From Synechococcus sp. PCC 6312 (GTDB taxonomy: Bacteria > Cyanobacteriota > Cyanobacteriia > Thermosynechococcales > Thermosynechococcaceae): a DNA stretch of 64,000 nucleotides. The stretch spans positions 993,501 through 1,057,500 of the forward strand of contig NC_019680.1 of the NCBI RefSeq assembly GCF_000316685.1. The letters are read 5' to 3'. Numbering within the stretch: the stretch's first letter is position 1; every line of letters begins with the position of its first letter. The notes under the pieces are model-generated. The model was not told the origin of the DNA. It saw only the letters and a list, made by a program, of their open reading frames with translations, and did no database searches. The translations under genes and the position numbers were made by a program. Below are positions 4,143 through 53,998 of this stretch, in pieces.

Positions 4143-4472
4143 AGACTCGACCCACGGCTTGATTCCCGACTAATTTTATTGAACGTCAGCAGCTTAGGGT
4201 AATGGTCAATCCTGCAAAAAGACTTAACAGGTCGATGGATTTCTCCTAATGATCTCAAATGGCTGAAATCCAGGCCTGGAGAAAGTTACATCGGCTTTGA
4301 TACTGCCTAAGAGCTTAACTTGGAATTGGTTTTCTCAATGTTCCGTAATGGTTTTTCGTGATTCTTTACATTATTTCTGTTTTCCTGAATTGGCAAACAT
4401 GGCCTGATGTATAGCTTTTCGCGCTCAGTTTTGCGGGTGTTTTGGGAGAGGGTATTAACTTTTCGATTCTTA

Positions 4473-4555
4473 CTAATTCTGCCAGGCCAGGCCCTGGAAC
4501 CAAAAAACTCAAACATCAACACTGAAACTACCAAATCAGCGTCCAAGGATTGCAA
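4473..4555 (-). pseudogene. DUF2442 3'-end remnant (copy R1)
   Basis: The minus strand encodes SLDADLVVSVLMFEFFGSRAWPGRI, a decayed version of SLDADLAVPALMSQIFGSRAW from the intact DUF2442 gene at 9403-9774. The start of the gene is missing. It lies directly downstream (in transcription direction) of the first brnTA pair. The rest of 4143-4472 is AT-rich and holds no gene that I can support. Confidence 0.7.
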
Positions 4556-4573
4556 CTAAGCGATCTATGAAAT

Positions 4574-4849
4574 TTAATGATGTGCCTCCATATAGGCTCG
4601 AAGTAATTGATTAATCTGGGTTTGATAGCCCCGACCTTGTGATTTAAACCACTCCAACACATCACGATCAATTCGGAGTGTCACTTGAGCCTTAGCTTTA
4701 GTAAGAGGTAAACCCCGCCGCACTATCGCCTGAGCAAACATTTCTGGGGTTATCTCTGGACAATCTGATAAATCAATATCTTCATCGTTCATTGCATCCA
4801 ATCGTTCCCAATTAGTTTGAGAGTTGCTCGAAGTAGGTTTGTTGCTCAT
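4574..4849 (-). CDS. brnA: BrnA-type antitoxin
   Basis: A 91-aa protein starting MSNKPTSSNSQTNWERLD at ATG 4849; the frame is open for 22 more codons but those overlap brnT deeply. The C-terminal half (KAQVTLRIDRDVLEWFKSQG, then GYQTQINQLLRAYMEAHH) is the ribbon-helix-helix DNA-binding domain of BrnA, which neutralises BrnT and autoregulates the operon. The first 40 residues are acidic (DEDIDLSDCPEITPE), as in other BrnA proteins. It overlaps the 3' end of brnT by 38 bp, so translation is coupled. Confidence 0.88.
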   Translation of the reverse strand: MSNKPTSSNSQTNWERLDAMNDEDIDLSDCPEITPEMFAQAIVRRGLPLTKAKAQVTLRIDRDVLEWFKSQGRGYQTQINQLLRAYMEAHH

Positions 4850-5087
4850 ATTTGGTCGCTTTTCTGGCAGAAATAATACGGATAGAATCCTCAGATTCAG
4901 TATAGACAATGGCAATCACTCGCCCTCGCGACAAGCCGAATGTAACAAAACGCTGCTCTCCATAGCTGTAACGATCATCCTCAACTGTGAGAATATCGCC
5001 ATCAAACACGGCTGGAACATCGCTAAAATCTATTCCATGCTTACGAAGATTAGTAAGACGTTTTGCTTCATCCCATTGATATTCCAT
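4812..5087 (-). CDS. brnT: BrnT-type RNase toxin
   Basis: A 91-aa toxin of the RelE-like BrnT family. It starts MEYQWDEAKRLTNLRKHGID, the family N-terminus, continues with the strand RFVTFGLSRGRVIAIVYTE and ends IRIISARKATKYEQQTYFEQ, with the Arg/His-rich catalytic surface (R..ISAR.A...E) conserved. BrnT cleaves RNA and arrests growth. Upstream of it (5088-5150) is a direct-repeat-like segment with TTGTAGTT repeated, which may be the BrnA operator. A decayed copy of its first 20 codons and upstream region recurs at 9835-9965. Confidence 0.9.
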   Translation of the reverse strand: MEYQWDEAKRLTNLRKHGIDFSDVPAVFDGDILTVEDDRYSYGEQRFVTFGLSRGRVIAIVYTESEDSIRIISARKATKYEQQTYFEQLSN

Positions 5088-5160
5088 AACTAAACGGCAG
5101 CTATAGTAATCAATTGTAGTTGCAAATTGTAGTTACAGTGTCGAATTTAGGTGATTTTCA

Positions 5161-5565
5161 TTGTGAATCAACGGGCTTCCTGGGTGAATGGGCGTTTAGG
5201 GCCTGAAATAATTTTCCCGTTTTCTCTAACTCTCCCATCCAGGCCCTGGAACCAAAAATCTGAGACATCAATGCCGGAACTGCCAAATCAGCATCCAAGG
5301 ATTCCCAATGTAAGCCATAGCCAGAGGGAGAAACTTCAACTTCAGCTAATTGTTCGAGAGTCGCGCCTTGTAAGCCCTAGAGCAAATGAACCGGAAAGGA
5401 TGCCCTTACCCCAGTTTTTAACTCGATCTCGATTGTGTAATCAACCGGGTTAAACCAGGCCAGTTTTGCCCGAGGTTCTCTTTTTTCTAGAACTTCATCC
5501 ACTTTTCGAGCATTATCTATTTGCTGTTGGATATCTGGGGCAATCGGGAAAGCATCACTAGTCAT
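5161..5565 (-). pseudogene. DUF2442 gene with an internal nonsense codon (copy R2)
   Basis: Starts MTSDAFPIAPDIQQQIDNAR at 5565 and is closely related to the intact gene at 9403-9774. After ...FPVHLL a TAG at 5377-5379 replaces the Gln codon of the intact copy (HLLQGLQ). Beyond this stop the same frame continues to encode GLQGATLEQLAEVEVSPSG and SLDADLAVPALMSQIFGSRA before a TGA at about 5161. So this is one point mutation away from an almost full-length gene. It lies 9 bp downstream of the TOPRIM gene. Confidence 0.8.
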
Positions 5566-5574
5566 GAAGCAGTA

Positions 5575-6126
5575 TCACAAGACACCTACAGTTTCCTGCA
5601 CAGACTGAAGAAACTCAATTACATCTTGAATAACTAAAGCTTTACGCAGAACTTTAATATCTTCATTTGTGAGTTTCTCAACCATTTGAGATTGATTTTG
5701 AAAATTTTTAGATTTTGAAATTAATTTTTCTAAAGCTTGCTTAGGCTGGTAGGTTGCCAATCTAAGTATGTCTTCAGATGGAAAATACCCCAGTAGATCG
5801 GCAAGGAGGGATGTGTCTTGGAAAAAAACGATTTCGAGAGTAGGAACAGCCAATACTACTTTAACTGGCGCATTCACAGCAATATTTCCAACAAGTTCTT
5901 CAGTATCTTTTAATCGTTGCTCAACTTGTTCGGGGATAGTTGTATCCGCATCTGCCACGATCACTACAGGGGACTGTCGACGAGCAACTAAAGAACGAGC
6001 TAAGGACTTAACAGCAGATAAACCACCCGCGGCAACAATTTCAACATTACTAACTAATTCTTCTGGCAGAAGCCGCTGCAATAATTGTGCGTCCCGTGCC
6101 CCTTCACAGACAATATATGTCGTCAT
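5575..6126 (-). CDS. TOPRIM-domain protein, partner of an Mrr-like nuclease
   Basis: A 183-aa protein beginning MTTYIVCEGARDAQLLQRLL. The N-terminal 90 residues show the TOPRIM signature: a strand ending in the catalytic Glu (VCEGARDA) and, after a helix and a GG turn, VVIVADADTT with the D-x-D pair; a further strand PVKVVLAVPTLEIVFF follows. The C-terminal part is helical and charged (PKQALEKLISKSKNF). TOPRIM folds bind metal and act in nucleases, primases and topoisomerases. Start ATG overlaps the stop of the upstream nuclease-like gene by 4 bp (ATGA), so the two form one unit. It resembles small TOPRIM/DUF4276-like defence proteins; the exact family is not certain. Confidence 0.65.
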   Translation of the reverse strand: MTTYIVCEGARDAQLLQRLLPEELVSNVEIVAAGGLSAVKSLARSLVARRQSPVVIVADADTTIPEQVEQRLKDTEELVGNIAVNAPVKVVLAVPTLEIVFFQDTSLLADLLGYFPSEDILRLATYQPKQALEKLISKSKNFQNQSQMVEKLTNEDIKVLRKALVIQDVIEFLQSVQETVGVL

Positions 6127-6623
6127 GGAATACCTCGCTCTCTTACATCATAGTCAGGTAGGCCATCTTCAACGCATACGCGATATTTAAGCTGAAGCAG
6201 TTCGCAAATTGATTCTTGCTCTAAGGCATATCTTAGCTCTTCTCCACTCCAAAGTAGAATTGTCTGAGGCAATGAAAAGTAGGAGAGATGACGGGCTGGA
6301 TCAGTAAATCCTGTCCGACTGAAGACTAAGCCAAGCGTGCTTTCAGGACGACGCAACAGCTGATTGCGCAATTTAGCGATTGGTGTAATGTCAACGTTGA
6401 CTTTATCAGCAAAGTCTTTGCTCTCGACTAAGCAGGATAAGCCTGAGCAGTAAATTACACCATCAATTTGTTCAACCTCTTCCCCAAATAATCTGACGCT
6501 GAACGGATACTTGACATCTGCTCCATCAAGCTGAAAGGCTCGCAGAACCAAGTATTCAAAAGCTTTTCCTGATCCCCATTCTGGAGTGCTACGATTTTCA
6601 ATGCTCTCCCAAAGCGATCGCAA
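6123..6623 (-). CDS. PD-(D/E)XK (Mrr-like) restriction-endonuclease-fold protein
   Basis: A 166-aa protein with the nuclease core EQIDGVIYCSGLSCLVESKD: Asp, then a beta hairpin, then E-x-K, as in the Mrr/PD-(D/E)XK superfamily. A Glu in the helix GSGKAFEYLVLRAF could be the N-terminal active-site residue. The C-terminal part (STLGLVFSRTGFTDPARHL) fits the later strands of the fold. No ATG is in frame near the front; the frame opens at TTG 6623 with a TGA four codons upstream, so the start is uncertain or the front is slightly truncated. A HIP1 octamer GCGATCGC overlaps the first codons. It is coupled to the TOPRIM gene. Confidence 0.65.
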   Translation of the reverse strand: MRSLWESIENRSTPEWGSGKAFEYLVLRAFQLDGADVKYPFSVRLFGEEVEQIDGVIYCSGLSCLVESKDFADKVNVDITPIAKLRNQLLRRPESTLGLVFSRTGFTDPARHLSYFSLPQTILLWSGEELRYALEQESICELLQLKYRVCVEDGLPDYDVRERGIP

Positions 6624-6826
6624 ACCTTGTCATGGCAGAGATTGAATCATTTCTTCATATTTTGCTGCTACAGTCAATCCCAATCCTCCAAGCTCTGGCT
6701 TGTGATTTTCCTGACCTAGTTTGCAACGTTATCCCATATGTCAAGTTTTTGTCTAGGTTTCTTGTAGAGATAAAGGCAGGAAATTTCCGCCTCACCCAGG
6801 CCAGTGTATTCCAACTCCCACTCAAA

Positions 6827-6886
6827 ATCTGCCCATCCAGGCTCCTGAACCAAAAATCTGAGACATCAACGCCGGAACTGCCAAAT
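6827..6886 (-). pseudogene. DUF2442 3'-end remnant (copy R3)
   Basis: The minus strand encodes LAVPALMSQIFGSGAWMG followed shortly by a stop, matching the core of the intact DUF2442 gene at 9403-9774. It sits 29 bp downstream of the GNAT gene. The rest of 6624-6914 shows no supported gene. Confidence 0.65.
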
Positions 6887-6914
6887 TGGTAAGCATAGCA
6901 ATGATTTATAAAAA

Positions 6915-7496
6915 CTATTCAAGTGATAAATCGATTAACGGCTTGAGATCGAAATACATGGTTCGGTATGGAATTTCTGGCGATACAGTTTCATCAGGAT
7001 TCACGAATTGAAAGCCAAACTTCTGATAAAAACCGGAAGCGTCATAGGGAGGCTCGACATCGGCATCGTAAAGTGCGTCAACCGTCAAAAACCTGATACC
7101 AACTGCACTTGCTAACTCAACCGCAACGTATTCTAAAGCCCATTCAACTAATGCTGAGCCTGCCCCTTTTGCCCGTTGATCGGCAGCTAACAAACCAATT
7201 TTGATTGCAGGAAACGAGCGATATCTTACTCCTTCTTCTGCTAGTAGCTGTGTATCAACTTGAAGTTTGTCTGCTAAAAGAGTTATATAGCCAGCCAAAT
7301 CAGATTTGTGTCTAATAATCCAGCACTGGCAAATACTGGCTTCTACTTCACGCTGAACTCGGCCTTGTTTCCAATATGTGACAAACTCACGTCTCTGACA
7401 GCGAAAACCTTGACCTATAATTTCCTGGACAGAGTTTATCTTCTTTATTTGTGCTTCAGAAAAATCTACACCTGCAAATTTACTGTCTTTGGGCAT
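6915..7496 (-). CDS. GNAT-family acetyltransferase, likely toxin of a TA-like pair
   Basis: A 193-aa GNAT protein. The acetyl-CoA loop is present as IGLLAADQRAKGAGSALVEWA (motif A, residues about 103-123), followed by the strand VGIRFLTVDALYDADVEPP and the motif-B region FYQKFGFQFVNP. The length and the late YQKFGF motif resemble TacT/AtaT-type tRNA-acetylating toxins. Its start overlaps the 3' end of a small upstream gene by 17 bp, the usual antitoxin-toxin arrangement. The small gene is not an obvious DUF1778 antitoxin, so a TA role is inferred from architecture. Confidence 0.75.
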   Translation of the reverse strand: MPKDSKFAGVDFSEAQIKKINSVQEIIGQGFRCQRREFVTYWKQGRVQREVEASICQCWIIRHKSDLAGYITLLADKLQVDTQLLAEEGVRYRSFPAIKIGLLAADQRAKGAGSALVEWALEYVAVELASAVGIRFLTVDALYDADVEPPYDASGFYQKFGFQFVNPDETVSPEIPYRTMYFDLKPLIDLSLE

Positions 7497-7680
7497 CCAC
7501 TAACTCGCTAACCGTATGACGGGCGGAACCTTTACGTGCTTTACGACGTTCAGCGATACGCTTGGACGTGGCTAGTGCGGCATCATTAGCTACATACCCA
7601 CCTTGATCAATAGCACTCAAGAGTTTTTGAGCTTCATGCCCAACAACAGGCATAGATTGAGTATGTAAGGGATATTTCAT
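7480..7680 (-). CDS. Small putative antitoxin preceding the GNAT
   Basis: A 66-aa protein starting MKYPLHTQSMPVVGHEAQKL at ATG 7680; an upstream open extension to 7728 looks non-coding. The middle (GHEAQKLLSAIDQGGYVAND) is predicted helical and the second half is very basic (TSKRIAERRKARKGSARH), compatible with DNA or tRNA binding. It lacks a recognisable ribbon-helix-helix. It overlaps the GNAT gene by 17 bp. I do not recognise the family; the antitoxin role is inferred from size, charge and position. Confidence 0.5.
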   Translation of the reverse strand: MKYPLHTQSMPVVGHEAQKLLSAIDQGGYVANDAALATSKRIAERRKARKGSARHTVSELVDAQRQ

Positions 7681-7785
7681 TATTCTAAGTACGACATAAG
7701 TAGCTTCGCTCAAGTTAATGATAACCAATCGCTAGCAAGGTTGGGATAAAGCGACCAATGAAGTAGTGAAGCGGAAATAGGCCTA

Positions 7786-7862
7786 GACTGGCCCTGGATC
7801 CAAAAGTCTGAGACATCAACGCCGGAGCTACCAAATCCGTATGGAATTTAACTCGATCTTGA
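7786..7862 (-). pseudogene. DUF2442 remnant with internal deletion (copy R4)
   Basis: The stretch 7790-7838 matches the conserved SQIFGSRA-encoding core of DUF2442 and is joined to a short segment (TTAACTCGATCTTG) that resembles an earlier part of the same gene, at about 5418 in copy R2. This suggests an internal deletion. It is immediately downstream of the second brnA. Confidence 0.6.
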
Positions 7863-7871
7863 AAATAACAA

Positions 7872-8156
7872 TCAAAGTTTAGTCGCTGATCGTTCTAATT
7901 CTTCGCGCAGTACTCGTCTCAAGGTTGACTCTAGCGGTTCATGTTGTTGGTGAATATGGGTTCGCAAGGCTTCATTAATTAAGGTCTGATAGTTGCCTCC
8001 GCCGGCCTGGTGAACTTGCTCCCGAAACCATTCCAATACATCATCATCAATCCGAATGGTAATGCGTGTTTTTCCAGAACTAACTGGATCGATGGCCCCA
8101 CGTCTTCCTTGGCTAAAATCATATTCCACTGCTTCAGAATCGTCTTTCATGTCCAT
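7872..8156 (-). CDS. brnA: BrnA-type antitoxin, second copy
   Basis: A 94-aa BrnA: acidic N-terminus (DSEAVEYDFSQGRRG), then TRITIRIDDDVLEWFREQ and GNYQTLINEALRTHIHQ forming the ribbon-helix-helix, then a charged C-terminal helix (LESTLRRVLREELERSATKL) absent from the first copy. Related to, but clearly different from, the BrnA at 4574, so the two pairs are not a recent duplication. The start is 3 bp after the brnT stop; ATG 8156 or the next ATG (8150) could be used. Confidence 0.87.
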   Translation of the reverse strand: MDMKDDSEAVEYDFSQGRRGAIDPVSSGKTRITIRIDDDVLEWFREQVHQAGGGNYQTLINEALRTHIHQQHEPLESTLRRVLREELERSATKL

Positions 8157-8159
8157 AAT

Positions 8160-8426
8160 TTAGCCCTCAAAATACTGTCTTTGCTCTTGCCGAGTCGCAG
8201 GCCTGGCAGAAATTAGTCGAATTTCCTGATCACGCCAGGTATAAATCACCACAAGCACTCGACCTAGGGCATCTACACCAATTGTAATGAACCGCTCTTC
8301 ATTGAATCGTTCATCAGGAATTGTGATTGCCAGATCATCGGAGAACACAGAAACTGCATCGGCAAAATCAATACCGTGCTTACGGAGGTTTGTTGCAGCT
8401 TTGTTGTTGTCCCATTGATACGCCAT
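8160..8426 (-). CDS. brnT: BrnT-type RNase toxin, second copy
   Basis: An 88-aa BrnT with start chosen at MAYQWDNNKAATNLRKHGID (ATG 8426), the usual family N-terminus; nine codons upstream are also open. Conserved features include the strand RFITIGVDALGRVLVVIYT and the terminal IRLISARPATRQEQRQY. It forms an operon with the following brnA. RNA-cleaving toxin by family knowledge. The region upstream (8427-8480) probably holds the promoter. Confidence 0.9.
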   Translation of the reverse strand: MAYQWDNNKAATNLRKHGIDFADAVSVFSDDLAITIPDERFNEERFITIGVDALGRVLVVIYTWRDQEIRLISARPATRQEQRQYFEG

Positions 8427-8480
8427 TTGAATATTGTATGCATAATTGTACATACAAAGATCAATGGGTTGCAGGCATTT

Positions 8481-8631
8481 CAGTCCTCTTCCTTGATGAG
8501 TTGACCAGTGCGCTCTAATTCTCCCATCCAGGCCCCGGAACCAAAAATCTGAGACATCAACGCCGGAACCGCCAAATCAGCATCCAAGGATTCCCAACGT
8601 AAGCCATAGCCAGATGGATAAATCTCAACTG
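8481..8631 (-). pseudogene. DUF2442 3'-end remnant (copy R5)
   Basis: About 150 bp closely similar to the 3' part of the intact gene at 9403-9774, including the tail with TGACCAGT and CCTCTTCCTTGAT. The reading starts abruptly at the codons for VEIYPSGYGL; the 5' half is missing. It lies just beyond a short attC-like sequence after the PIN gene. Confidence 0.75.
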
Positions 8632-8632
8632 C

Positions 8633-8673
8633 ACATAACTAAAGCAACTTTGAATTGTCACTAGTTGTTATGC
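8633..8673 (-). other. Short attC-like inverted repeat after the PIN gene (weak)
   Basis: On the minus strand this reads GCATAAC, then an arm resembling the attC at 10034-10119 (AACTAGTGACAATTC against AAATCGCTGCAATTG), then a partly complementary arm and GTTATGT. It is only 41 bp, shorter than normal attC sites, and no matching box was seen at the start of the PIN cassette. It may be a degraded site. Confidence 0.3.
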
Positions 8674-8682
8674 TTCACATTC

Positions 8683-9090
8683 TCAAAAAACCTTGAATGG
8701 ATTGAGAATCTCTAGATTATCGATATTAGAGTACCCAAAATCTTCGGTATATAGAATCTGAATGTTTGCCTCTAAACAAGCAGCAACAATCATGGAATCC
8801 CAATGCGATAGATTAAAGCGGCTCATCAGATTTTCTGCACGATCAATGACGTTCCATGTTGGGAGTACGGTGTACCAAACCTGCTGCAAATCACGAATAT
8901 ATTGGTAGGCTTTTAATCTGTCATACCCCATTGATTCAAGTTTTCGACTGGCTGCTAAATACTCACAGGCCACTTGCCAGAGTAGAGCACCATCTGTTAG
9001 AGAAGCCACAAGAGAAATTGCTGTTTCTTGTTTGATTGCATCACGAGGATCATTGACATAAATCAGGATATTAGTATCAACGGCGTTCAT
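8683..9090 (-). CDS. PIN-domain RNase toxin
   Basis: A 135-aa PIN protein with start at MNAVDTNILIYVND (ATG 9090); upstream codons overlap the antitoxin gene and are not family-like. PIN acidic residues are visible: the Asp of VDTNILIY, a Glu in QVACEYLAASRKLE, and the Asp pair around LSHWDSMIVAA and YTEDF. VapC-like PIN toxins cut tRNA or rRNA. It overlaps its antitoxin by 14 bp. The stop is 10 bp before an attC-like repeat and a DUF2442 remnant. Confidence 0.88.
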   Translation of the reverse strand: MNAVDTNILIYVNDPRDAIKQETAISLVASLTDGALLWQVACEYLAASRKLESMGYDRLKAYQYIRDLQQVWYTVLPTWNVIDRAENLMSRFNLSHWDSMIVAACLEANIQILYTEDFGYSNIDNLEILNPFKVF

Positions 9091-9307
9091 GCAACATATC
9101 TCGTGTGAAGCGAGGCGCATTGATGGGGATTGGGTTGCGTTGCATTCGTTCAATCAACATTTTTAGAAACTGCTTCTTAGTTTCTGGTTCGGAAATTGGA
9201 GGTAACACAACTGTAGGAGGCTGAATCGACAACTCAACCTCAGTACCCTCTGGTAGATCAAAGGCTATTTGAGGTACAAATACACCATTTCGATAGATAG
9301 CTTTCAT
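9077..9307 (-). CDS. AF2212/DUF104-type antitoxin
   Basis: A 76-aa protein starting MKAIYRNGVFVPQIAFDLPE (ATG 9307; four more codons are open upstream). The N-terminal beta unit with YRNGVF-P...LPEGTEVEL is the hallmark of the AF2212/DUF104 antitoxin family that pairs with PIN toxins. The C-terminal tail (RMQRNPIPINAPRFTRDMLHERR) is the likely toxin-wrapping peptide. It overlaps the PIN gene. Confidence 0.85.
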   Translation of the reverse strand: MKAIYRNGVFVPQIAFDLPEGTEVELSIQPPTVVLPPISEPETKKQFLKMLIERMQRNPIPINAPRFTRDMLHERR

Positions 9308-9402
9308 GGTTTGAGGCATAGGATATCTCCTGATTAGCTATCTTAATAAGGACTTTAAACATGGTCAAAAGATTTTATACTTTTATGATACAACTAAGAA
9401 GT

Positions 9403-9774
9403 TCAGACCTCTTCCTTGATAAGTTGACCAGTTCTCTCTAATTCTGCCATCCAGGCCCTGGAACCAAAAATCTGAGACATCAATGCCGGAACTGCCAAAT
9501 CCGCATCCAAGGATTTCCAGTGCAAGCCATAACCAGAGGGAGAAATTTCAACATCAGCTAATTGTTCGGAAGTTGCACCTTGTAAGCCTTGGAGTAAATG
9601 AATTGGAAAAGATGCTCTCACCCCAGTCTTGAGTTCAATTTCAATTGTATTATCGACCGGATTAAACCAGGCTCGCTTTGCCCGTGGCTCCCTTTTTTCC
9701 AGAACTTCCTCTTGGTGTCGAGCATTATCTATTTGCTGTTGGATATCTGGGTCAATAGGGATAGAGTTGGTCAT
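9403..9774 (-). CDS. DUF2442 protein, the intact copy
   Basis: A 123-aa protein with start at MTNSIPIDPDIQQQI; an ATG nine codons upstream (9801) is also possible. The DUF2442 core is seen in RAWFNPVDNTIEIELKTGVR, LADVEISPSGYGLHWKSLD, and DLAVPALMSQIFGSRAWM. Family members are small proteins often encoded with DUF4160 proteins and treated as antitoxin-like; no DUF4160 gene is next to this one. Upstream is a truncated brnT remnant. At least five decayed copies of its 3' end are spread leftwards to 4.47 kb. Confidence 0.8.
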   Translation of the reverse strand: MTNSIPIDPDIQQQIDNARHQEEVLEKREPRAKRAWFNPVDNTIEIELKTGVRASFPIHLLQGLQGATSEQLADVEISPSGYGLHWKSLDADLAVPALMSQIFGSRAWMAELERTGQLIKEEV

Positions 9775-9834
9775 AATAGAGCCGACATCATAACTATCCA
9801 TGAATCAGCCTCATCTTTTCTTCAATATCGAAAA

Positions 9835-9903
9835 ATCACGAAAATATATTTCGTGCCTATGAAGATTAGTAAGATACTTTACTTTATCCCATTAATATTC
9901 CAT
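9835..9903 (-). pseudogene. Truncated brnT remnant with upstream region
   Basis: The minus strand reads MEY, stop, WDKVKYLTNLHRHEIYF, which corresponds to the first 20 codons of brnT at 5087 with a TAA at codon 4. The similarity continues for about 60 bp upstream (shared ACTAAACGGCAGCTA and TTCAATTGTAGTT against 5088-5150). The remainder of brnT and all of brnA are gone. Confidence 0.75.
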
Positions 9904-10033
9904 GACTAAACGGCAGCTACAGTATTCAATTGTAGTTAAAAATTTTCGTTGCAGCACCGAGTTTAAGCAATGGACATTGTAAATTAAGGCCTTCTAATCT
10001 GCTTCCAGTTAATATTCTAATCGACATCTTGCT

Positions 10034-10119
10034 GTATAACGAATTAACTCACTCGTTGTCATTGACTTTGGGTCATGTGGATAGTTTGGCTTACTATCAA
10101 TTGCAGCGATTTGTTATGC
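10034..10119 (-). other. attC-like recombination site of the TIR/membrane-protein cassette
   Basis: Read on the minus strand: R'' box GCATAAC, 8 nt, an unpaired G, CAATTG, an unpaired A, a loop, then a partly complementary arm and the box GTTATAC. GCATAAC is the exact complement of GTTATGC at the start of the same cassette (11103-11109), as expected for a mobile cassette. The second arm is somewhat degraded. The site begins 17 bp after the membrane-protein gene. 86 bp. Confidence 0.6.
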
Positions 10120-10136
10120 ATGGGGCTTGACAGAAA

Positions 10137-10586
10137 CTATCCAATAACTATCTTTCTTGCAATAGTTATTAATAGCAAGAGTGTTGAGTAAAATCCCCAT
10201 ACTGAGAAGGACTTTAGTGATTCTAACTGATGTTTTGACTGACAGCCAGAAGGTGAGACGAAATAGAGGTCAGCATATGTAGCTTCTCCTCCATGTAATT
10301 TAGAAACAAAATTATTGTAAGTTAATCTAAAACCCTTCTCTAAAGCCAAATAATATGTATCAAGAGCCATGAATAAAAGATTAGGAATTAAGGCTATCCA
10401 AGCGTAATCAGGCTTCCCTTTATCAGCAACAATTACTAGAATCGCTGAGACTAGGGTAATACACGCTGTCTTAGCATTGCTGCTATTAGTTGCCATCCTT
10501 TGAATAACTGACTGAAGAATACCTAAGTGAGTTTGGACAGAAGGAGATGCTTCATCCAAAGAAGAGTTTGATGTCTGTTTAGCCAT
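10137..10586 (-). CDS. Small multi-pass membrane protein paired with a TIR-like protein
   Basis: A 149-aa protein starting MAKQTSNSSLDEASPSVQTH (ATG 10586, overlapping the TIR gene stop by 8 bp; six further codons upstream are open). It has three hydrophobic spans: ACITLVSAILVIVAD, YAWIALIPNLLFMALDTYYL and FSVWGFYSTLLLLITIA. The N-terminal helix LGILQSVIQRMATNSSNAKT and the sequence LDTYYLALEKGFRLTYNNF recall a family of small membrane proteins found next to TIR/MTH538-like sensors, resembling the SLATT/S-4TM effectors described in nucleotide-activated conflict systems. It probably acts as the membrane-damaging effector; this is inferred from topology and context. Confidence 0.6.
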   Translation of the reverse strand: MAKQTSNSSLDEASPSVQTHLGILQSVIQRMATNSSNAKTACITLVSAILVIVADKGKPDYAWIALIPNLLFMALDTYYLALEKGFRLTYNNFVSKLHGGEATYADLYFVSPSGCQSKHQLESLKSFSVWGFYSTLLLLITIARKIVIG

Positions 10587-11073
10587 ATCTAGCTCTAATC
10601 TCAATAGCTTTCTCTATCCAATCGGCAAGGTTATTGTATATGTGGTTATAAACGTATGTGCTAGTCAAGAAAGGTGGATCATAAGCTGCAACAATGCTAG
10701 ACATAATCTTGTCGCCAATTGTGAAATCATCAAAAGGATTGTTACCTTTGATCGACTGGTTCCCATCCTTATCCTTCAGGTTGTGAATATAAATCCCTAA
10801 AACTCCTTTATTATCTTTCCAAGCCTTTTCTATCTCATATTTTATCCATTTCCTACCAGCAGTGTTTTGCCCAATAAGAACAATTGCAACTGATTTGCCG
10901 TACATTTGGTCATCAATCCATTTCTGAATTGCTTTGTCTCCACCTCTTTTGACTGTCTCCCAGTCATTATCTGATGCTGGTCTGTTGCCTTCTACAATTC
11001 CCATATTGCGCACTTGAGATGCTCGCCAGTTATCAGGATTGTAATGGAAGCTATAAAATACTTTTCGAGCCAT
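10579..11073 (-). CDS. MTH538/ThsB-type TIR-like protein
   Basis: A 164-aa protein beginning MARKVFYSFHYNPDNWRASQ, the N-terminus typical of the MTH538 TIR-like (DUF1863, ThsB) family. After a variable insert come VAIVLIGQNTAGRKWIKYE (the strand and the W...YE helix that carries the catalytic Glu in TIR enzymes) and GVLGIYIHNLKDKDGNQ. In Thoeris systems ThsB senses phage infection and makes a cyclic ADP-ribose-derived signal. There is no ThsA here; the coupled gene encodes a small membrane protein. The pair occupies one attC-bounded cassette. Confidence 0.82.
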   Translation of the reverse strand: MARKVFYSFHYNPDNWRASQVRNMGIVEGNRPASDNDWETVKRGGDKAIQKWIDDQMYGKSVAIVLIGQNTAGRKWIKYEIEKAWKDNKGVLGIYIHNLKDKDGNQSIKGNNPFDDFTIGDKIMSSIVAAYDPPFLTSTYVYNHIYNNLADWIEKAIEIRARYG

Positions 11074-11102: not shown

Positions 11103-11190
11103 GCATAACGATAATGGTCAGCGGCGGTCTGCCAAAATAGGCCACAACGTTAGAGATCTTCGTTCCGTCCGCTGCACCAACCTGTTAGAC
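11103..11190 (-). other. attC-like recombination site of the zinc-ribbon/KTSC cassette
   Basis: Read on the minus strand: GTCTAAC (R''), 8 nt ending GGT, unpaired G, CAGCGG, unpaired A, CGG, a loop, then the complementary arm CCG-CCGCTG-ACC and GTTATGC (R' of the next cassette). The two arms pair perfectly over 12 bp except for the two bulged bases six apart, the geometry of integron attC sites. GTCTAAC is complementary to GTTAGAC at the start of the same cassette (11745-11751). The site follows the KTSC-like gene. 88 bp. Confidence 0.78.
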
Positions 11191-11744: not shown

Positions 11745-11840
11745 GTCTAACTAGGTATTAGGCTGAAAGATTCTACCTAAAAGAATAATCAAGGTGTTTA
11801 GACTGAATGTCAAGCTCTTACCTAAGTTCTTTATAAATAT
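11745..11840 (-). promoter_or_regulatory. Leader A: promoter-bearing segment ending at the first cassette boundary
   Basis: On the minus strand this segment contains TTGACA, 17 nt, then GATTAT, a plausible sigma70-type promoter pointing into the cassettes. It ends with GCCTAATACCTAGTTAGAC, where GTTAGAC fits the integron crossover consensus GTTRRRY. A diverged copy (leader B) lies at 53884-53998 before another cassette. It could be an attI-like site plus cassette promoter. Confidence 0.45.
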
Positions 11841-51997: not shown

Positions 51998-52065
51998 TTC
52001 GCATTTACTCGTTAAAATTGTCGTAAAGACTGCAGATACCAGCCAGCATTTGGGAGTGATTGGAC

Positions 52066-52653
52066 ATGAGGATTCAGCCGCATCTTCACAAACAGATAAA
52101 AATTGCCTGTTCAGGATTATGTGTTGGTTCGCTCCTACCCCTTGTTTTTACCTTACCCAGCCAGGCCCAGAAAAATCCAGGGGACATCATTGTGATTGGC
52201 AATTCTCCCCGGCAATGGGCCCAAAATCAAAGCTATTGGAATCAATTAGTCGGAGTCTTTGGGCGGGCCATTCCGGCAGCTACGGCTCCTGATCCCTCTA
52301 CCGATACCACCCAGGCCGCGGCAGACCCCCAAGTTCTGATCCAAAAACTCCTCCAAAATATCTCAGTGGGCGCGCCGCAACTGCAACCGATCCTGAAATT
52401 ACCGGGCTCTTCCCAAATCTCAGGGTCCCTCACCAATCGGAATAATCAACCTGTCACCATTGGCGGGGTCAATTTTGAGGTTTTGGATAATACAGGTAAT
52501 GTGATTCAAACTGGCTCGGCCATCCCGGAACCGGCAACCGTGGGGCCTGGGCAAACAGTCACCTATCAACAAACCCTACTAACTGTCCCGTCCGATGTGG
52601 GGGCTTCTGTGCGTTTGATTAATCCCCCCGTCACCATTCAGGGCGGCATCTAA
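52066..52653 (+). CDS. Exported protein of unknown function
   Basis: A 195-aa protein with start at ATG 52066. The signal peptide (RIQPHLHKQIKIACSG, then LCVGSLLPLVFTL) ends with SQA-Q. The mature part has a linker rich in Ala/Asp/Thr and a C-terminal beta domain (SGSLTNRNNQPVTIGGVNFE, VLDNTGNVIQTGSA, VGPGQTVTYQQTLL) that resembles an FxLYD-type fold. Its last 75 bp overlap antisense with the end of the next gene. Confidence 0.75.
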   Translation: MRIQPHLHKQIKIACSGLCVGSLLPLVFTLPSQAQKNPGDIIVIGNSPRQWAQNQSYWNQLVGVFGRAIPAATAPDPSTDTTQAAADPQVLIQKLLQNISVGAPQLQPILKLPGSSQISGSLTNRNNQPVTIGGVNFEVLDNTGNVIQTGSAIPEPATVGPGQTVTYQQTLLTVPSDVGASVRLINPPVTIQGGI

Positions 52654-53229
52654 AAATTCCCAGATGGGGCGGTCATCCCAAACTTGTACCTCAATAAACC
52701 TGTCATATCGCCAATACTCTTCTGTTTTCCATTTATCACCGGGCATTCCATATTCTTGAATAACCTCAATGATTTCTTCTGCCGTAAATACTTGACCATG
52801 AATTGGTTTGCGATAAGAATCACCTCGCCCAGTTGTGTCTGTTGCAATCGCTAGACTTGGCATACTGTCTGGGTAGGTGAACGAAATCATATCACTGCTA
52901 AATAGAGATAATGGGATCTGCAACTTAGCCGGATTTGCATCGCTGAAAAAGCCGTTCTTTTGAAAGAAATCGTCATTCTCACCTAATACAAAGTAGCGCG
53001 GGCTTTGAAGGTGTGGTTTCTTACCTTTTCTCACAAACTCGCTGTAGAGCCACGCTTCGACTCTTCGACGTTCTTCCAGATAACCAGGATGCAGCCATGC
53101 CCGTTTGCCGCTCTCTTTAAGGGTAGATAGAAATTGCTCAGCCATCTCATCGGGATAGCTACAAATATTTTTCAAGCGATCGCTACCCTCGCTGTAGTAC
53201 TGCGTGATGTAGTCTGGTATCCCGTACAT
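52579..53229 (-). CDS. Hypothetical protein, 216 aa, cassette-borne
   Basis: MYGIPDYITQYYSEGSDRLK, NICSYPDEMAEQFLSTLKES, then RAWLHPGYLEERRRVEAWLY. Rich in aromatic residues; no membrane segment. I do not recognise the family. The last 25 residues (ALNGDGGINQTHRSPHIGRD) read through the antisense of the exported-protein gene and were probably added when the original end was lost. It contains a HIP1 octamer at 53176-53183. It follows a RidA cassette and its attC-like site, so it is probably an acquired cassette gene. Confidence 0.6.
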   Translation of the reverse strand: MYGIPDYITQYYSEGSDRLKNICSYPDEMAEQFLSTLKESGKRAWLHPGYLEERRRVEAWLYSEFVRKGKKPHLQSPRYFVLGENDDFFQKNGFFSDANPAKLQIPLSLFSSDMISFTYPDSMPSLAIATDTTGRGDSYRKPIHGQVFTAEEIIEVIQEYGMPGDKWKTEEYWRYDRFIEVQVWDDRPIWEFLDAALNGDGGINQTHRSPHIGRDS

Positions 53230-53290
53230 TCATCGCAAGCAACTCAACCAGCTACTCTCAAACTACTACCAGCACCCGTAACCGAAGCCA

Positions 53291-53376
53291 GCTAACGGTT
53301 GTGCTCACCGGACACAGACAACCTTTGTTACTCAACCAACTATTTTGGGACGTTCCGGTGCAGCACGATCTTAGGC
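53291..53376 (-). other. attC-like recombination site after the RidA gene
   Basis: Read on the minus strand: GCCTAAG, 8 nt, unpaired G, CACCGG, unpaired A, AC, loop, then GT-CCGGTG-AGCAC and GTTAGC. The arms pair except for the two bulged bases, six apart. GCCTAAG differs by one base from the complement of GTTAGGC at the start of the RidA cassette (53884-53890). Same spacing as the sites at 10.0 and 11.1 kb. 86 bp. Confidence 0.72.
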
Positions 53377-53416
53377 ACCAACGGTGCCCGGAAAGGCAAC
53401 GCTAACTTGGTGGTAC

Positions 53417-53809
53417 TCAGCCGGGAATACGGGCGATGACCTTGATCTCGAAGTCGAACCCTGCAAGCCAGTTGACGCCGATCGCCGTCCAATTCGGATA
53501 AGGCGCTTCCGGGAAGACTTCGCTTTTAACGGTCATGATCGTGCCGAATTGATTTTCGGGATCGGTATGAAAGGTCGTAACATCGACGATATCGTCAAGC
53601 CCGCATCCACCCGCTTGCAGGGTCGCCTCTAGATTGGCGAATGCCAGACGAACCTGAGCCTCAAAGTCCGGCTCTGGCGAGCCATCGCTGCGACTGCCGA
53701 CCTGACCGGACACAAACAGGAGATTATCTGATCTGATCGCTGCGGAATAGGTCTGTGACGTGTAGAGGTCATGCCGACCGGCGGGGAAAACGGCGTCACG
53801 CTGGGTCAT
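53417..53809 (-). CDS. RidA-family (YjgF/UK114) protein
   Basis: A 130-aa protein: YSAAIRSDNLLFVSGQVGSR, LAFANLEATLQAGGCGLDDI, VDVTTFHTDPENQFG and a final FEIKVIARIPG. The active-site Arg (R105 in RidA) is not present in the usual R...E arrangement, so it may belong to a non-deaminase Rid subgroup. Composition is more GC-rich than the flanks. An attC-like site follows and a GTTAGGC boundary precedes it, so it is a gene cassette, probably from a proteobacterial donor. Confidence 0.85.
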   Translation of the reverse strand: MTQRDAVFPAGRHDLYTSQTYSAAIRSDNLLFVSGQVGSRSDGSPEPDFEAQVRLAFANLEATLQAGGCGLDDIVDVTTFHTDPENQFGTIMTVKSEVFPEAPYPNWTAIGVNWLAGFDFEIKVIARIPG

Positions 53810-53883
53810 ATGGAATCTCCTGTTGTGGGTGGCTGGAAAGCGGTGCCAACGAATGCTTACGACAACTTGAAAGCTGGATTGGT

Positions 53884-53998
53884 GCCTAACTTGGTATTAG
53901 ACAGAAAAATTCCGTCTAAACTCACTATTTAAAGTGTATAGACAGAATCTCAAGTTGCTATCCTATTATTTTATAAAAAATTATTTATTTTAGACGGA
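53884..53998 (-). promoter_or_regulatory. Leader B: diverged copy of leader A with inverted repeats
   Basis: On the minus strand this segment is alignable with leader A (11745-11840): both share TTTATAAA, CTTGA-ATTC-GTCTA-ACAC and end in CTAATACC(A/T)AGTTAG. It contains TCCGTCTAAA (53911-53920) and its inverse TTTAGACGGA (53989-53998), and a hairpin TTAGACAG/CCGTCTAA. TTGAGA could act as a -35 box. The rest of 53999-54294 (about 300 bp) holds no gene. Confidence 0.4.

Follow-up and report, generated by a model that had tools for sequence, protein, structure and literature searches.

A RidA gene cassette at an orphan attI-type element of Synechococcus sp. PCC 6312 and the possible dispersal of integron sites over cyanobacterial chromosomes

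The RidA-family gene found at 53.3 to 53.9 kb of the window (the whole stretch of 64,000 nucleotides analyzed here) is probably an integron gene cassette that sits at an orphan attI site with a likely promoter of its own, the integrase having since been lost. An integron is usually pictured as a single integrase with a single attI next to it. Comparison with related genomes makes it fairly probable that several lineages of Cyanobacteria carry a “distributed integron,” in which one or two integrases serve about 3 to 13 attI-promoter sites per chromosome in trans; any of these sites could receive and express a cassette, and the sites would outlast intI and may await a new integrase. This arrangement is best called an integron spread over many attI sites. 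Should chromosomes indeed hold many attI sites that bear promoters and are used in trans, expression of foreign genes would be possible at once from many places, and surveys seeking intI or at least two attC sites would overlook many such sites.

Table 1. Features of the two platforms in the window and of their flanks
Feature	Positions	Strand	Evidence and remarks
Genes behind the attC at 11103-11190: ThsB-like TIR protein and second small protein	10137..11073	-	PADLOC PDLC00433, 5.5e-76; PDC-M50A, 1.9e-26
attC of first cassette, second platform	11103..11190	-	R2 71.2 bits, training member; finder score 34
attI-type element with promoter, second platform, behind typA	11746..11819	-	R1 70.3 bits, E 3.7e-19, training member
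Host gene with FxLYD domain; the inserted DNA runs into its 3' end	52060..52653	+	NCBIfam NF038353, 8.1e-11
216-aa ORF, second cassette	52579..53229	-	Found in 11/388 genomes of the class, this one included
attC of RidA cassette	53290..53376	-	R'' GCCTAAG, 8 nt, extrahelical G, L'' CACCGGA, loop, L' TCCGGTG, R' GTTAGCT
RidA-family gene, cassette 1	53417..53809	-	Pfam PF01042 (Ribonuc_L-PSP), 4.9e-29
attI-type element with likely cassette promoter, 76 bp	53884..53959	-	R1 71.4 bits, E 1.8e-19 (whole genome), training member
Sigma-70-like promoter TTGAGA-18-AATAGT within the attI element	53924..53953	-	9/12 consensus matches
Host gene on the opposite flank, 458 aa	54295..55671	+	Matches in 29/29 family genomes (this one and paralogues included)

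The RidA cassette and its attC site

On the minus strand, a GTTAGGC box (about 53884 to 53890) is followed by the RidA ORF and then by an attC site. The first-pass annotation had described this order, with an attC-like site of 86 bp, and direct reading of the sequence bears it out: the RidA cassette with its attC is real, and the finding reaches further than first noted. The attC occupies 53291 to 53376, or 53290 to 53376 if the seventh base of the last box is counted, and is in phase with the attI, as expected of an integron cassette. Its GTTAGC box opens the unit that holds the 216-aa ORF, as had been proposed. The claimed equality of spacing with sites 42 kb away is also upheld, as the site at 11103 to 11190 (minus strand) reads GTCTAAC, 8 nt, G, CAGCGGA. 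Two bulged bases had been suggested, of which the G is the extrahelical base but the A is better read as paired, because columns T16 and A75 pair in all six sites. The fold of 53293 to 53405 has a z value of -2.61, better than 199 of 200 shuffles.

A simple attC finder returns four matches in the window, the RidA site (35.5) and the site at 11103 to 11190 (34) being the best and the others scoring 31 and 29.5. Among 40 Markov shuffles of the 64 kb, a score of at least 35.5 is reached once in total and one of at least 34 three times, so that attC shape alone is only moderately significant. Six sites of this genome align with a common bulged G and served to build a covariance model of attC, R2. 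The covariance search that had been suggested as a check gives the RidA site 82.2 bits (E 2.2e-16 over the whole genome), the site itself being in the training set, and finds a single attC at the RidA locus. On the stated structure of the six sites, 88% of the cells pair, and both sides change in 18 cells versus 6.2 in shuffles; the finder that supplied all the training sites demands pairing and so inflates covariation, and these figures therefore support a shared geometry more than they prove it.

Independent support for the identity of the attC sites comes from their position relative to attI. R2 finds further attC in this genome, and 3 of the 12 nontraining sites (E ≤ 0.112) lie no more than 4 kb downstream of a same-strand attI, a number reached once in 20,000 random placements. 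The other nine have no attI within 4 kb; they include the arrays at 1.907 to 1.910 and 0.722 to 0.725 Mb. In the fetched loci that hold both kinds of site, all 60 counted nontraining attC lie downstream of the attI and on the same strand; 10 of these come from one array (L175), and the flank lengths are comparable (611 and 591 kb summed over attI). The genome-wide count that had been called for thus stands at 13 attI (model R1, E ≤ 2e-7) and 18 listed attC (R2), but half of the attC have no attI within 4 kb.

The two arrays just mentioned lie on the minus strand at 1906554 to 1910228 and 722475 to 725176, with no R1 attI nearby. Pattern searches were uninformative both with GCCTAAG and with TCTAATACCNAGTTAG at 3 mismatches (80 matches versus 169 in the backward control). 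At the Rfam gathering score, a tRNA is the sole match.

An attI-type element with a likely promoter

GTTAGGC is the R box that ends the attI-type element at 53884 to 53959, and the cassette starts there. The element is homologous to the one at 11746 to 11819 upstream of the second array and to the attI sites beside a true intI in loci L066 and L069 of relatives, where the element and a genuine integron integrase gene (TIGR02249, 459 and 470 bits; cutoff, 265) are divergent. This homology to intI-linked sites argues for its identification as an attI. Further copies, in this and other genomes, were matched with a 113-bp query. Most aligned copies have in common a TTGACA-like -35 box, an A/T-rich -10-like box, the inverted repeat TTAGACnGAA...TTTCTGTCTAA, and the crossover box. 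The hexamers are alike among the aligned copies, the -35 hexamer being TTGACA in five other aligned copies of this genome and TTGAGA at the RidA copy. The element likely bears a cassette promoter; the promoter scan by itself, with two sigma-70-like matches versus a shuffle mean of 1.2, is not significant.

R1, a sequence-only attI model made from eight copies (six of them from this genome), finds 13 copies in the genome at E ≤ 2e-7, the six training sequences among them, distributed over nine places; two weaker matches are found at E ≤ 0.01. Homology among these copies ends near the crossover box, and the DNA downstream differs, whereas the left edge is variable and often lies about 70 bp upstream. 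The part common to the 13 copies and to the intI-linked attI of relatives extends about 70 to 75 bp upstream of the box. The first-pass annotation had seen only a start box, which is indeed present; it belongs to a whole attI element with a likely promoter, and both loci have one of their own. The two loci are thus docking platforms, not random cassette insertions.

The second platform carries, behind its attC, a ThsB-like TIR gene and a PDC-M50A-type gene, a candidate anti-phage pair that is probably carried as a cassette. Another attC, suspected by eye at 10030 to 10125, gave no match to R2. Other platforms of this genome carry an alpha/beta hydrolase, an SDR protein, a SnoaL protein, a DUF6119 protein, and an EcoRI-type restriction-modification pair. 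The latter (PF02963, 1.4e-140) is found directly behind an attI at about 845 kb of the genome (L060, 2065 to 3980), where R2 lists no attC. Positions 4400 to 10000 of the window hold an island of small toxin-antitoxin-like genes, in which a DUF2442 gene region is repeated and a 65-bp repeat is present six times.

Second cassette and flanking host genes

No attC was found behind the 216-aa ORF, whose last 25 codons or so are antisense to the neighboring FxLYD gene. Its DNA homology ends at 52636 to 52654 for the four best relatives and at 52724 for a weaker fifth. The right border of the inserted DNA thus looks truncated, because the homology ends where the ORF enters the FxLYD antisense. The 458-aa host protein on the other side has paralogues, which complicates comparison by flanking genes. 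Searches revealed no genome in which the RidA site is empty or holds something else, and the gene order around RidA is not conserved in the family stretches compared. The FxLYD gene was not found in these stretches (five of 12 to 15 kb, the others no longer than 4.4 kb); HemD is found nearby in one of them (L194).

Origin of the RidA gene

Among the best 80 relatives listed, the RidA protein is 97% identical to that of Phyllobacterium bourgognense and 94 to 96% identical to those of Novosphingobium, Sphingopyxis, and three other cyanobacteria. In the tree, it groups with Phyllobacterium and Neoroseomonas with a support of 91/88, below the tool's mark of 95/80, and this group lies in a marked set of 13 rows (96/80) that consists of the protein itself, 8 Pseudomonadota, and 4 Cyanobacteriota. 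The tree is based on 130 columns, 72 of its 80 rows are Pseudomonadota, and most of its forks are weak. Plasmid searches give a RidA match in 175 records, one of them, from Phyllobacterium zundukense, at 90 to 95% identity. The GC content of the gene is 0.567, versus 0.478 in the window and 0.512 to 0.537 in three host genes.

DNA similarity to the relatives spans the gene and a leader of about 36 to 45 bp; it is lost no more than about 20 bp from the stop codon. In none of the 80 relatives' loci (flanks read for 14) does the match extend to the attC. The shared leader and the attC soon after the stop codon hint at the way in which a gene with proteobacterial kin may have been turned into a cassette. 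Vertical descent with the same flanks in all relatives had been named beforehand as the outcome that would overturn the cassette reading; comparison of RidA with its host shows instead a descent that does not look vertical, with Phyllobacterium kin and no matching attC. Judged by the protein matches and the tree, vertical descent is very unlikely; the gene has kin outside the lineage and seems to have come laterally from other bacteria.

Search for an integrase

A search with TIGR02249 over the genome yields nothing above the cutoff, only a partial match of 22.4 bits on a small contig, C2. No intI is found in the RidA locus or elsewhere in the genome at E ≤ 1e-60, and a profile of 38 IntI sequences leaves no trace in the 2.5 kb upstream of any of the 13 attI copies. 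Because the genome yielded no integron integrase, none would be acting in trans today, and the attI sites now look like relics. The photosystem genes of the host mark it as a cyanobacterium. Within the class, intI is found at E ≤ 1e-60 in 130 of 388 genomes. An R1 match at E ≤ 0.01 is found in 170 of 388, many of these being weak, and 30 of 388 reach 1e-10; this R1 count scored 12 candidates per genome.

Cassette turnover at attI sites of related genomes

We compared 75 attI loci from 27 relatives, taken from the better R1 matches rather than from all. Of these, 10 have a full intI within 2 kb upstream and 51 nothing of the kind; the remaining 14 show a weak match or a remnant (E ≤ 1e-3), in one case 272 aa in length. 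Among 44 cross-genome pairs that lack a full intI and share at least 350 bp upstream, which are not independent of one another, 5 have DNA in common over the 1.5 kb that follow the attI, and the other 39 have none.

Two clusters of loci, A (G242, G184, G051, and G248) and B (G172 and G100), allow both junctions to be read. Their upstream flanks form blocks mostly of 88 to 96% identity (79 to 82% in short pieces) that continue until 0 to 3 bases from where the attI match ends. In cluster A, the far flank resumes at TTAGACATTAACTGAAGG, the preceding base being G in G184 and G051 and A in G248 (resuming TTAGAC); that of cluster B resumes at CCGTTAGTTGG and is identical from two bases before the GTT. 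G242 shows no far flank within 5.9 kb. The DNA between the attI and the far flank is mostly different in cluster A, with lengths of 1.7 kb (G184), 0.8 kb (G051), and 2.6 kb (G248, where the segment contains a second attI). The point of resumption is the last box of an attC match in four of the five loci (G184, G248, G172, and G100), the fifth, L067 of G051, lying outside the R2 scan; in both clusters the far flanks start again no more than 2 bases from the crossover point (G|TT) of the final attC. At E ≤ 1e-3, none of the six loci gives an IntI match. Elsewhere in the genome, intI is found (E ≤ 1e-60) in G242, G051, and G248 and as a single copy in G100, with none in G184 or G172.

That the conserved flanks lack intI, that the cassettes differ, and that both joints fall at the crossover point together imply a recombinase acting from another place. 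Loss of different parts of a longer ancestral array would likewise call for excision at exact points. Clusters A and B are thus best explained as precise cassette exchange at unlinked attI by an integrase in trans. In clusters D and E, only the left junction is exact; the far flanks resume where no attC was seen. At another shared site, intI is whole in G242 and G100, reduced to short IntI-like matches at most in five others, and represented only by its two ends in G129. This site, together with the intI remnants beside other copies, shows that some orphan attI sites had intI in cis at an earlier time.

Several other arrangements are seen in these loci. L161 and L163 have a common attI and cassette (93%) with unrelated upstream flanks, the edge lying 78 bp before the junction, so that promoter, attI, and gene may have moved together. 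An attI that is itself a mobile promoter cassette was considered; the intI remnants at other copies rather favor decay of full integrons. The sharp left edge in L162 looks, by eye, like a MITE-like insertion. An intI-bearing array with 18 attC ends (L355 of G196) contains a gene-less cassette of 213 to 217 bp 11 times among larger cassettes. Five loci of one genus (L069, L157, L164, L166, and L170) have, by eye, tandem imperfect palindromes of about 42 bp upstream of the attI, in some of them between intI and attI; these might be integrase or regulator sites.

Proposed mechanism and alternatives

In the scheme that we favor, an ancestor would have had an IntI-type integrase and several cognate attI-promoter elements around the chromosome. 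A RidA cassette in circular form would have entered the attI at 53.88 kb, the integrase joining the folded bottom strand of the cassette attC to the GTT there; RidA would thereby have come under the putative promoter of the element, with the 216-aa cassette lying behind it. Later loss of intI would have frozen the platforms. In relatives, the layout looks live, with one or two intI, several attI, and cassettes that appear to change at attI with no adjoining intI. The first-pass annotation had proposed that one integrase inserts cassettes in trans at the two distant loci. Integron-type cassettes, a shared site class, and exchange far from an integrase are well supported, the last of these in relatives, but no integrase is found here. 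The similarity of the sites, offered as evidence for this proposal, is insufficient alone, since both loci could have lost a linked intI; the evidence for action in trans comes from the orthologous orphan attI sites of other genomes. For Synechococcus sp. PCC 6312 itself, trans insertion, the activity of the promoter, and the order of events are inferred. Points against the favored scheme are that five of the 44 orphan pairs do share downstream DNA, that half of the listed attC of this genome have no attI within 4 kb, that some orphan sites once had intI in cis, and that the RidA site itself was found neither empty nor with another cassette in any genome.

Alternatively, each platform might once have been a separate integron with a linked intI, copied or inserted several times and deprived of intI place by place; cassettes would have entered in cis, and nothing would need to act in trans. 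The intI remnants or weak matches at 14 of 75 relative loci and the shared site with intI whole in two genomes and reduced in the others fit such decay, whereas the 13 attI copies of this genome show no intI trace in the 2.5 kb upstream, and the six loci of clusters A and B keep their upstream flanks, also lacking intI, with different cassettes. The latter implies that exchange continued in the absence of a linked intI and weakens the explanation there; overall, we consider decay of separate integrons rather unlikely. A further possibility is that the RidA and array loci arose by integrase insertion at attG, i.e., nonclassical genomic sites unrelated to attI. Insertion of this kind was reportedly described by Loot and colleagues in 2024 and is said to leave dispersed single cassettes, and the GTTAGGC start box alone would fit it. 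However, the target at the RidA locus is a conserved attI element, neither random nor a lone box, and attG sites would not share the element of about 70 to 75 bp common to the 13 copies and to intI-linked attI. Homology thus refutes attG insertion for the RidA and 11.7-kb loci, and as a general account it is very improbable; it may hold for the attC arrays at 1.907 to 1.910 and 0.722 to 0.725 Mb. It is hardly conceivable that the attC-like hairpins are due to chance and that the common element has nothing to do with integrons, being a promoter repeat or MITE scattered over the genome. Short repeats do occur in these genomes, as in the L162 flank interrupted by the MITE-like insertion, and the shape score of 35.5 was reached once in the 40 shuffles, but the strand and downstream position of all 60 counted attC, the end of identity between copies near the recombination point, and the full intI that the element abuts at 10 of 75 relative loci all argue against it, and clusters A and B, with junctions that are exact on both sides, refute it.

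Comparison with known systems

Integrons have long been listed in cyanobacteria (PMC2426708, PMC8352920). A search of the open-licence literature yielded no description of a dispersed set of promoter-bearing attI sites used with no linked intI. PMC9024848 calls attI sites outside class 1 poorly described; the R1 element provides a sequence definition of one such attI family.

The core of the class 1 attI1 has inverted boxes before its GTTAGGC crossover, as does the attI of the RidA locus. The two differ otherwise in sequence.

The RidA locus resembles attG and attI-like secondary sites in that the target is other than an intI-linked attI. It differs from them in that this target is no lone GTT box but a conserved element of about 76 bp that has homology to intI-linked attI and a likely promoter. 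Such attI-like sites as these are reported to be frequent across genomes, and attI × attI-like reactions have been described (PMC10127599).

Like a CALIN, the locus has a cassette and an attC with no linked intI. Unlike a CALIN, it has an attI with a likely promoter, and one attC was found there, whereas CALINs comprise at least two attC with no intI under the IntegronFinder 2 default. PMC9024848 gives this threshold of two and notes that single-attC cases can be real; PMC12444791 and PMC9668308 state that a functional IntI can move CALIN cassettes in trans.

The closest likeness is to the chromosomal integron (intI, attI, Pc, and attC cassettes), with which the arrangement shares a homologous attI, a likely promoter, attC with an extrahelical base, and unidirectional cassettes. 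It differs from a chromosomal integron in having many attI per genome, few of them with intI, and in Synechococcus sp. PCC 6312 none with an intI that could be found.
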